From assembly GCA_014584695.1 (NCBI GenBank), contig JACTMI010000010.1:186001-250000 (forward strand): a stretch of 64,000 bases of DNA, given 5' to 3'. The position numbers were made by a program, and so were the translations under genes. This DNA comes from Acidobacteriota bacterium (GTDB taxonomy: Bacteria; Acidobacteriota; Thermoanaerobaculia; Multivoradales; JAGPDF01). The notes beneath the pieces are model-generated. The model was not told the DNA's origin and did no database searches. It worked only from the letters and a program-made list of their open reading frames with translations. This document shows positions 3,202 through 14,342 of this stretch, piece after piece; within the stretch, counting starts at the first letter, position 1, and each line of letters starts with the position of its first letter.

Positions 3202-3230
3202 TTGACAACCCGGTTCGGCAGGTGCACACT
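3202..3230 (+). promoter_or_regulatory. sigma70-like promoter of the riboswitch-like RNA
   Basis: A perfect -35 hexamer TTGACA (3202-3207) is followed by exactly 17 bases and a weak -10 CACACT (3225-3230; A, A and T of the consensus match). Transcription would start near 3237, at the first bases of the structured RNA. It stands out in GC-rich sequence. Confidence 0.55.
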
Positions 3231-3235
3231 GATTG

Positions 3236-3330
3236 CGGCATCGAGAGCGGCCCGAGAGGGCCCGGCAACCTGGGATCGGACACCCAAGGTGCTCGCCCGC
3301 CAGCGTGGGGGGATGCGGTCACGGGCTCCA
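3236..3330 (+). ncRNA. SAM-I/SAM-IV clan riboswitch-like RNA, no obvious target gene
   Basis: The sequence carries the signature core of SAM-clan aptamers: CCCGGCAACC (3261-3270), a P3-like hairpin CCTGGG/CCCAAGG (3269-3274 with 3283-3289), then GGTGCT (3288-3293). A possible P1 closes with GCATC (3238-3242) and GATGC (3312-3316). A promoter lies just upstream and an 11-bp intrinsic-terminator stem just downstream, giving a transcript of about 160 bases. SAM-clan aptamers normally sit in leaders of methionine or SAM genes. Here the next gene (3422-4264) is on the opposite strand and the next same-strand gene is 1 kb away. The exact subfamily (SAM-I, SAM-IV or variant) cannot be fixed by eye. 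Confidence 0.5.
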
Positions 3331-3356
3331 GACCCGCGACAACCAAGTGCCCGGCG

Positions 3357-3394
3357 AGAGCCCGCCATCCACGGGAATCGGATTGGCGGGCTCT
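3357..3394 (+). terminator. Intrinsic terminator hairpin after the riboswitch-like RNA
   Basis: AGAGCCCGCCA (3357-3367) and TGGCGGGCTCT (3384-3394) form a perfect 11-bp stem with a 16-base loop, followed by TCTGTC rather than a strong T tract. It may be the expression platform of the aptamer, and could also serve the convergent GNAT gene ending at 3422. Confidence 0.6.
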
Positions 3395-3421
3395 TCTGTC
3401 CGCGGCGGCAGGCCGCTCGCG

Positions 3422-4264
3422 CTAGCGCGCTTCGCGAACCAGGATCGCCCGGGCATAGAGCAGCTGGAAGCCTCGGCGCTCGACGTTCTGCTGAGACTTC
3501 GAGCCCGGCTGCGTGGTCACCACGGCGAGATCACAACCGGCCGCGTGCGCCGCCGCCAGGCGGGCGGCGAGCAGCGCTGATTGGACGCCCCGCCGCAGGT
3601 GAGCGGGATGGGTCGCGGCGCCGCAGAGCACCGCCACACCGTCGCCGCCGAGGCGCAAGCTGCCCCCTCCCGCGGGCTCCCCTCCGCGGCGCGCGAGGTA
3701 GCGAACGAAACCCTCCGCTTGCCCCAGGTCGCCCAGCGTCCGCTGCAGGACTTCGCGCGGGAACTCCTCGTGAGTCGCGACGCCCTCCGCGTCGGGCGCG
3801 GCGAAGCCCCCGACCACCAGATCGAGCCACAGCTCGAGCTCGTCCGGGCCGCTCGACCGGATCTCGACCCCAGCGGGCCGCACCGCCTCGATGGTTGGGT
3901 CGAGGGCCAGCGCCAGGACGTGCTCGAAGCCGTTCACCTGGAATCCGCGCTCGCCGAGGAAAGCCCCGATCGACGGCTCGCCGAGACTCGACAGCTCGAC
4001 TTGGATGCGCGCTCCGCGGGCCGCGTACGCAGCCTCCACCCGCTCCCACTCGGACGGATCGAGCGGCCCGCCGAAACCGAGCCCGGCCACCTTGTCCAGC
4101 GGTGAGTCCACCCCCGCCCAGACCGCGACTCCTCCGGCGATCGGCAGCGCCATCGCCATCGGCTCGCGTCCGGCGGCCACCTGGGCGCCGGCACGCAGGA
4201 GCTCACACTCGGCCCGCTCGACCCGCGCCGCGAGCTCGGTCGATCCGAACAGTCTCGCTCCCAT
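3422..4264 (-). CDS. GNAT-family N-acetyltransferase
   Basis: A 280-residue protein. The open frame extends upstream to 4315, but the ATG at 4264 has a good ribosome site (GGAGGAGA) and is chosen. The C-terminal half carries the GNAT acetyl-CoA loop in the form HLRRGVQSALL, followed by a TTQPGSKSQQNVERRGFQLLY segment typical of the fold's last strands. The N-terminal half is a divergent, GNAT-like region, so a tandem-GNAT protein is possible. The acceptor substrate is unknown. It is convergent with the riboswitch-like RNA. Confidence 0.8.
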   Translation of the reverse strand: MGARLFGSTELAARVERAECELLRAGAQVAAGREPMAMALPIAGGVAVWAGVDSPLDKVAGLGFGGPLDPSEWERVEAAYAARGARIQVELSSLGEPSIGAFLGERGFQVNGFEHVLALALDPTIEAVRPAGVEIRSSGPDELELWLDLVVGGFAAPDAEGVATHEEFPREVLQRTLGDLGQAEGFVRYLARRGGEPAGGGSLRLGGDGVAVLCGAATHPAHLRRGVQSALLAARLAAAHAAGCDLAVVTTQPGSKSQQNVERRGFQLLYARAILVREAR

Positions 4265-4392
4265 CCACGTCTCCTCCGGGGACGCATCCTGGCCCGCGAG
4301 CCGCCCGAGCCGCAACCAGCGCCGCGCGCGCGCAGCCGCCAGCCCCGCGAGCGGGTTATCCTTCGCGTTCGGGGCCGAGAGCTGGAGCGCGC

Positions 4393-4779
4393 ATGAGCGA
4401 CACGACCACCCGCGGGATTCGCATCGTGGCCCGCAGCGAATACCAACCGGAGCGCAGCGCCCCGGCCGAGGGTCACTACTTCTTCTCCTACCGGATCCGG
4501 ATCGAGAACCGCGGCGAGAGCGCCGCGCAGCTGCTCTCCCGCCTCTGGATCATCACCGACGACTGCGGCGAGGAGACGCGGGTCGAGGGCCCCGGCGTCG
4601 TCGGCGAAACGCCGCTGCTCGAGCCCGGGCAGTCGTTCGAGTATCAGAGCTTCTGTCCGCTGGGTACGGCGGTCGGCACCATGGAGGGACACTACGGGAT
4701 GCTCCTCCCCGCCACCGGCGAGCGCTTCGAGGCGCGCATCGCCCCCTTCACCCTGGCCGTCCCCGGCGCGGTCAACTGA
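4393..4779 (+). CDS. apaG: ApaG protein
   Basis: A 128-residue protein, the usual ApaG length. It matches the conserved core: RIRIENRGESAAQLLSRLW, then GQSFEYQSFCPLGTAVGTM and EGHYGML near the C-terminus. ApaG is a small fibronectin-III-like cytosolic protein historically linked to cobalt/magnesium resistance, whose biochemical role is unsettled. The long upstream frame is non-coding; the ATG at 4393 follows a weak GGAG. The hydrolase gene follows 38 bases downstream on the same strand. Confidence 0.93.
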   Translation: MSDTTTRGIRIVARSEYQPERSAPAEGHYFFSYRIRIENRGESAAQLLSRLWIITDDCGEETRVEGPGVVGETPLLEPGQSFEYQSFCPLGTAVGTMEGHYGMLLPATGERFEARIAPFTLAVPGAVN

Positions 4780-12659: not shown

Positions 12660-14342
12660 TCAGCAAGACGAATGCCCGGACGCGCGGCGCAGGAGCAGGA
12701 GCGTCCGGTCGTCGGCGAAGGGGGCACCGCGAACGAAGCCGTCGAGCGCGGCCTCCAGGCCGTCGGCGAGGCTATCGAGCGCGTCGGTGCGATGCGCGCC
12801 CAGGTAGCTCTCCAATCGCTCGAGGCCGAACTCGACCTCACCGGGATCGGCGGCCTCGACGATGCCGTCGGTGTAGAGCGCCAGCAGGTCGCCCGCGGCG
12901 AGCTCGCCGCCCGCCTCGGAGAACGCCGCCTCGGCCAGCAGGCCGATCGGCGGGCCGGTGGCGCCGAGCCGCTCGATGGCGCCATCGGCGCGCACCACCA
13001 GCGCCGGGTTGTGGCCGGCGTTGACGTAGCGGAACCGGCCGCTGGCGGGCTCGACCGCGACCAGGAAGGCGGTCGCGTACTTGGCCGGCGGCGTGCGCCG
13101 GAAGAGCAACCTCGAGACGCGCGGTGCGATCTCGCCGGGGGGCAGCCCGAGCTCGATCGGGCTCGCCGCGAGTGCCTCGAGCGAGGCGGTCAGCAGCGCC
13201 GCCGCCATCCCCTTGCCCGAGACGTCGACCACCATCGCGAACAGGTCGGCCTGCTCGCCCCTCTCGGTGGCCACGTGGTAGTCGCCCGAGACCCCGCGCG
13301 AGGGGACGCTACCGGCGTAGAGCGACCAGCCCTCCGGTTGCGGCAGATCCTGCGGCAGCAGCCCGATCTGGATCGTGCGGGCGAGCTTGAGCTCCGCCTC
13401 GAGACGGCGCCGCTCGGCGGACTCCTCGGTCAGCGCGACGTTGCGGATGCGCAGCGCCGCGACCGAGGCGAGCGAGGTCAGCAGCTCGAGGTCGTCCTGC
13501 GTGAAGCTGCGCACGTGCGCCCGGGAGTCGAGCGCGATCATGCCGAGCGGGCCCTGATCGTCGAAGAGCGGCGCCGCGATCAGGCTGCGGATGCCGCTCA
13601 CCTGAAGGCTGGCCGCGCGGCCGAAGCGTTCGTCGCCGGCCAGGTCGAAGACCAGCGCCGCCTGGCGCCGCTCGATCACTTCCTGATGGAGCGTCGAGGA
13701 GAGCAGCGCGTCGCCGCGCGATCCGGGACCGCGGCGGGCCGAGGCGCGCCGGTACTGTCCGGGCCCGTCGCGCAGCACGATCACACCCTCCTCGGGCTGC
13801 AGCGCTCGGAAAGCGCGATCGAGAATCAGCTCGAGCAGCTCGGGCAGGGCCATCGAGGCGCCGAGCGCGCGGTGGACCTCGTTGAGCAGCTCGAGCCGGT
13901 TCGCACGCCGGGCGAGCATGTCGGCGGAGTCGTCGTGACTGTCGCGCGCCTCGACCGCGGAAATGATCTCGTCGGCGCGCAGGAAGAGCGAGGTGCCGGG
14001 CGTCGGAACCGTGGAGCCCGTGGCGAGGGGCGATCGGCCGCGCTCGGCGCCGATCCGGTCCACCACCAGGACGCTCGCGCCGACGCCGACCTGGTCGCCA
14101 GGCGCGAGGCGCTCGCGCTCGGCGAGCGCCTTGCCATTGCGCCGCGTACCGGAGCGCGAGCCCAGGTCCTCGATCCACCAGGCGTCGTCGCTCCGCACCA
14201 GCCGCGCGTGGCGGCGGGAGGCGGTGCGGTCGCCCAGCGCGATGTCGCTCTCCGCGCCGCGCCCGATCAGGATCTCGGGCTGGTCGAACTCGCGGGTCGT
14301 GGTCGCGAGCGGATCGCGCACCGTGAGGGTTATCGCGGGCAT
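12660..14342 (-). CDS. FHA-GAF-SpoIIE (PP2C-type) protein phosphatase
   Basis: A 560-residue cytosolic signalling protein. An FHA domain fills residues about 1-95 (LIGRGAESDIALGD, SRRHARL, GSRSGTRRNG), giving phosphothreonine binding. A GAF-like sensor follows (about 150-310). The C-terminal SpoIIE/PP2C domain has the metal-binding Asp motifs SGDYHVA and VVDVSGKGMAAAL, then NAGHNPALV, LALYTDGIVEA and FADDRTLLLL. It probably dephosphorylates Ser/Thr, such as an anti-sigma antagonist, with FHA docking to phosphorylated partners. Three receptor kinases and a second SpoIIE phosphatase lie within 13 kb. Confidence 0.92.
   Translation of the reverse strand: MPAITLTVRDPLATTTREFDQPEILIGRGAESDIALGDRTASRRHARLVRSDDAWWIEDLGSRSGTRRNGKALAERERLAPGDQVGVGASVLVVDRIGAERGRSPLATGSTVPTPGTSLFLRADEIISAVEARDSHDDSADMLARRANRLELLNEVHRALGASMALPELLELILDRAFRALQPEEGVIVLRDGPGQYRRASARRGPGSRGDALLSSTLHQEVIERRQAALVFDLAGDERFGRAASLQVSGIRSLIAAPLFDDQGPLGMIALDSRAHVRSFTQDDLELLTSLASVAALRIRNVALTEESAERRRLEAELKLARTIQIGLLPQDLPQPEGWSLYAGSVPSRGVSGDYHVATERGEQADLFAMVVDVSGKGMAAALLTASLEALAASPIELGLPPGEIAPRVSRLLFRRTPPAKYATAFLVAVEPASGRFRYVNAGHNPALVVRADGAIERLGATGPPIGLLAEAAFSEAGGELAAGDLLALYTDGIVEAADPGEVEFGLERLESYLGAHRTDALDSLADGLEAALDGFVRGAPFADDRTLLLLRRASGHSSC

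Follow-up and report, generated by a model that had tools for sequence, protein, structure and literature searches.

The window, by which we mean the whole 64,000-nt stretch of acidobacterial DNA that was analyzed, carries on its forward strand a compact element in which a promoter (3202..3230) is followed by a SAM-I/IV aptamer (3233..3356) and a terminator hairpin with a short T tract (3357..3399). Upstream lie genes for a TonB-dependent receptor and a CAT-like acetyltransferase. A GNAT acetyltransferase gene (PF00583; 3422-4264, minus strand), the downstream neighbor, which we do not take as a target, converges on the element 23 nt beyond the hairpin, and the next same-strand gene is apaG (PF04379; 4393-4779), 1 kb away, as the original prediction had described the surroundings. 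Riboswitches are generally regarded as cis elements, with a target gene directly downstream on the same strand; no gene occupies that position here, and reading of the locus revealed no methionine or SAM gene downstream of the RNA. A 525-aa reading frame spanning 3202-4779, which runs antisense to the GNAT gene, was discounted as one that arises by chance where GC content is high. The window also encodes a Cys/Met-metabolism PLP enzyme (PF01053; 37240-38385, minus strand), 34 kb from the RNA. No aptamer was found near the PF01053 Cys/Met-metabolism PLP enzymes of the genus, and hence no displaced partner gene could be identified.

The element was assigned to its riboswitch class with two covariance models. 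RF01725 (SAM-I-IV) was the sole Rfam family above its cut-off in the 64-kb window, matching positions 3233-3356 (+) with 45.1 bits against a cut-off of 41.1 (E = 4e-4), the outcome that had been named as a check of the original prediction. A clade-specific model (R2), built from relatives linked to methionine genes, with the window copy and all gene-less copies (hereafter orphans) left out, scored the window RNA at 71.5 bits (E ~4e-13), whereas its top chance match in 118 kb of scanned sequence reached ~14 bits. Chance resemblance to a SAM aptamer, favored by high GC content and nothing more, is thereby ruled out for practical purposes, the more so as homologous copies exist in two other species. 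The core of the window aptamer aligns with that of the crystallized SAM-I/IV aptamer 4L81 (sequence from PMC5393176), and the alignments show the SAM-clan core to be present: GAG after P1, GGCAACC, GGTGC and AT pairs in P1. Hallmarks of SAM-I/IV are a P2 without internal loop or kink-turn, the presence of P4 and P5, and a pseudoknot, next to P5, that links the P3 loop with the 3' tail (PMC2864571, PMC6890682). In the window copy P2 is unsplit, P4 and P5 are both present, and the pseudoknot forms 5 of its 6 pairs. The element is confirmed as a SAM-clan aptamer, precisely SAM-I/IV, and would be expected to bind SAM.

All parts of the aptamer could be placed on the sequence. P1 pairs GCATC (3238-3242) with GATGC (3312-3316), and P2 pairs GGCCC (3249-3253) with GGGCC (3258-3262). 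The SAM-core stretch CGGCAACC (3263-3270) leads into P3 and the ligand-binding core, formed by GGCAACCTGGG (3264-3274) and CCCAAGGTGCT (3283-3293), the latter ending in GGTGCT (3288-3293); the core, the P3-like hairpin, GGTGCT and, as a possibility, P1 had been recognized from the letters alone. P4 (3296..3311) consists of CCCGCCA and TGGGGG with one G bulged, and in the P5 hairpin (3318..3340) A3321 faces C3337 as the single A.C mismatch, while the loop, CTCCAGA (3326-3332), is enlarged and C-rich. The pseudoknot joins CGGACA (3277-3282) in the P3 loop to TGCCCG (3348-3353), with A3280 opposite C3350. The terminator hairpin (~3357-3394; -25.4 kcal/mol) has a stem longer than the 11 bp originally given, and the T tract after it, TCTGT, is poor. 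The promoter, TTGACA (3202-3207) and CACACT (3225-3230) with a 17-nt spacer, agrees with the earlier description. A simple promoter/terminator scan flagged neither signal in the window; the promoter is supported nevertheless by comparison with relatives, because TTGAC lies 35-37 nt upstream of P1 in most of the methionine-linked copies. In the window copy the -35 box stands 36 nt ahead of P1, so that the RNA is predicted to begin right at P1 (about 3236-3238). With an end near 3400, the predicted RNA would be ~160 nt long, and the promoter and terminator anatomy is compatible with such a discrete, terminated transcript.

To place the RNA within its family, we read 38 SAM-I/IV copies from across the order together with their neighbors, and found as targets metH, metF-metH, metK and one metY-like gene. 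The genus is represented by four genomes, the window's own (G000) and three others (G001, G002 and G003), and two copies occur in each; in the window's genome, default RF01725 settings recover one of them and the clade-specific model both. The one other copy in G000 (G000:C10:5139-5276) heads metF-metH. The second copy is gene-less in two of the three other genomes, G002 and G003: the G002 orphan is faced by a converging TPR gene, and in G003 a protein-kinase gene on the same strand begins roughly 100-200 nt on, its start being uncertain. G001 is without such an orphan, and its second copy heads the metY-like gene at a contig end. The question raised with the original prediction, whether in relatives the same element is followed directly by a methionine gene, thus has a divided answer: the orphans of G002 and G003 are likewise without one, but homologous aptamers do head metH, metF-metH, metK or the metY-like gene. 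The orphan is best explained as a descendant of the riboswitches that head methionine genes in this acidobacterial order.

Two further observations concern gene-less or unusually placed copies elsewhere. In G005, one SAM-I/IV RNA with an intact antiterminator (L029, G005:C176:1739-1875) precedes an uncharacterized gene (MKKKPTVPAAPAPPCHWSVEFGRSRGLQQRPF...), possibly a new SAM-controlled gene, and a SprT-like gene; another copy (L030, G005:C228:7659-7803) lacks the antiterminator, the first called gene, asparagine-synthetase-like, lies 475 nt on, and the copy is possibly a fourth orphan. In another family of the class, G119 has two gene-less copies (L112, G119:C119:78495-78632, and L113, G119:C35:33895-34032), one near a transposase fragment with intact switch pairing and one without the pairing and with a decayed pseudoknot; these are likely relics.

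The three orphans resemble one another as units and not in their surroundings, their neighbors being unrelated between species. They share the promoter TTGAC-N18-CACACT with GCACACT as the -10 region, its position relative to P1 (-36) and a P3 loop that exceeds those of the methionine-linked copies by one base. A scan for the CACACT promoter with the aptamer in 84,980 species genomes, a set that may leave out the window's genome, returned only G002 and G003. The window and G003 orphans are homologous from 3201 (-35 box) to 3366 (terminator arm), with 84% identity over 167 nt, and no homology between them was found beyond these limits, the flanks being unrelated. Orthologues of the GNAT and apaG genes in G001-G003 are never beside an orphan RNA; for GNAT they have 66% identity in G003 and 48% in G001. 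Since homology stops at the ends of the unit and the orthologues of its neighbors lie elsewhere, what is conserved is the transcription unit itself. In G001 (L094, G001:C368), the TonB receptor and GNAT genes are adjacent and co-directional without an RNA between them, whereas the CAT-like gene and the orphan lie between them in the window, where GNAT is inverted. The gene at 3-1583 of L043 has a 61% match at window positions 12846-14270, but a single match ~9.5 kb away in the other relative orientation is too little for synteny.

The expression platform sets the orphans apart from the remaining copies. Methionine-linked copies have a terminator whose 5' arm and loop (e.g., CCGCTCTCCGAATGC) are complementary to the aptamer's 5' strand, made up of P1, J1/2 and the first part of P2 (e.g., GCATTCGGAGCGG). 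Using a fixed 55-nt stretch per locus and shuffled strands as the control, we found this complementarity to be significant (p < 0.05) in 32 of 33 methionine-linked copies, and 27 of the 33 contain a complete P1 complement. The SAM-I/IV antiterminator in this order is evidently formed when the terminator arm and loop pair with the aptamer 5' strand (P1 5', J1/2 and P2 5') and not with the P1 3' strand; examples among the methionine-linked loci are L040 (5139-5330), L070 and L061. In classical S-box leaders, by contrast, the antiterminator is built from the P1 3' strand. None of the three orphans has the antiterminator (p = 0.95 in the window, 0.83 in G003 and 0.12 in G002) or a P1 complement, nor is there any excess of pairing with the P1 3' strand; by our arithmetic, the probability of picking three non-significant copies by chance from the 36 is 4/7140. 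As this pairing is absent, there is no visible control of the orphan terminator by the aptamer, and the RNA would probably end constitutively as a discrete SAM-binding RNA rather than serve as a cis attenuator.

Whether the orphans are maintained or decaying can be judged from their structure. Covariation of the structure is strong across 22 aligned copies: 15 pairs show two-sided changes, a number equaled in 0 of 500 shuffles. The G002 orphan is only 65-68% identical to the other two, yet every helix is fully paired: P2, P4 and the pseudoknot have been remade, the last by covariation (CCGGAA/TTCCGG). In a tree the window and G003 copies join and G002 sits on a long branch, but a single orphan clade is not rejected (p-AU = 0.27). 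If the three do have a common origin, the kept helices and covarying pseudoknot of G002 argue for selection on a free-standing RNA. Both the window copy and that of G003 retain P1-P4, all core bases, the promoter boxes with their spacing and the terminator intact. Two A.C mismatches, in P5 and in the pseudoknot respectively, distinguish the window copy from the others; of the 22 aligned copies, 21 keep the pseudoknot pair at A3280/C3350 and the window copy alone has it broken, a change that may be tolerated or may be the start of decay.

The main rival explanation is that the orphan is a relic, a riboswitch that stayed in place when the methionine gene it served disappeared or relocated, and that is now drifting. 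The mismatches confined to the window copy are what drift would produce, and differing neighbors in each species, the second copy of G001 that still heads the metY-like gene and the partly decayed gene-less copies in G119 all fit such a history. Drift accounts poorly, however, for promoter boxes, spacing, core bases, helices P1-P4 and terminator that are all intact in two species, and for a third copy with full helices and a compensated pseudoknot at its level of divergence. The unit is also better conserved between the window's genome and G003 than the four-fold sites of metH, which are 73% identical where 52% would be expected from composition alone, although its 84% identity could stem from recent transfer between lineages. 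Moreover, a relic would require loss of the gene without loss of the RNA in three lineages, with the antiterminator lost every time. We consider this explanation plausible but rather doubtful.

Alternatively, the element could attenuate read-through in cis, such that at low SAM an RNA antisense to the GNAT gene would be made, or in G003 the kinase mRNA. The convergent GNAT gene so close to the hairpin, the weak T tract and the same-strand kinase gene in G003 are in keeping with such an arrangement, for which AspocR (PMC8079631) and the clostridial S-box antisense RNA are precedents of riboswitch-controlled antisense RNA. As the antiterminator pairing is missing, though, termination would occur without evident SAM control, and the genes downstream are unrelated in the three species, so that we regard cis attenuation as unlikely.

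The aptamer identity, the promoter and terminator anatomy, the lack of a gene in cis, the loss of the antiterminator and the two gene-less sister copies come directly from the computation. From these we propose that the element would be a free-standing RNA gene composed of promoter, SAM-I/IV aptamer and constitutive terminator, and that its product would be a discrete RNA of about 160 nt folding as a SAM-binding aptamer. In the course of evolution, the sensor would have been kept while the target gene and the antiterminator pairing were lost. Transcribed on its own, the RNA would most likely act in trans as a SAM-sensing small RNA, with SAM altering its structure, stability or pairing, and the enlarged C-rich P5 loop might serve as a seed. 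The P5 loops of the orphans are all C-rich (CTCCAGA, ACCCCAGAC and ACCCA), whereas many methionine-linked loops are GNRA-like, and as a lead only, such a loop could pair with Shine-Dalgarno-like GGAG sequences. The presence of the same gene-less RNA at other places in two sister species suggests a small regulatory RNA derived from a former gene switch. Against action in trans stand the small number of known copies (three), the weak T tract, the absence of an orphan from G001, the two mismatches of the window copy and the relic-like copies in G119; weighing both sides, we see an even chance that the RNA is a free-standing SAM-sensing small RNA acting in trans. A more specific version is put forward tentatively: duplication of a methionine riboswitch would have given rise to a dedicated small-RNA gene, which kept promoter and SAM sensor, dropped target gene and antiterminator, acts in trans only and is conserved in one acidobacterial genus. 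If true, this would be an instance, repeated in three species, of a riboswitch becoming a small-RNA gene, with a promoter of its own, a terminator that does not switch and nothing to control in cis, a reading directly testable through the transcript, SAM binding and the loss of antitermination.

Compared with known systems, the window RNA has the same architecture and core sequence as the SAM-I/IV riboswitch (RF01725; PDB 4L81) and the same promoter position as the methionine-linked copies of its order, but differs in having neither a methionine or SAM gene downstream nor antiterminator complementarity to its terminator. AspocR and Rli55 are B12 riboswitches controlling non-coding RNAs, in which synthesis of a longer functional RNA depends on the riboswitch (PMC8079631). 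They resemble the window locus in that a metabolite aptamer is tied to an RNA product rather than a protein, but at the window locus neither a downstream RNA nor a switching pairing was found. The open-access literature yielded no matching case of a free-standing SAM aptamer RNA, most subscription papers lying outside the search. SreA and SreB of Listeria are SAM riboswitch RNAs that act in trans on prfA mRNA; to our knowledge, SreA is the SAM-sensing case of action in trans, and it is a cis switch as well. SreA controls in cis the methionine-transport operon that it heads, and SAM-dependent termination sets it free (PMC8079631). The parallel with SreA drawn in the original prediction therefore holds in part: the window RNA heads no operon, whereas SreA is also the cis switch of one, but the two are alike in that the window RNA, too, is predicted to be a terminated SAM-aptamer RNA and is proposed to act in trans.
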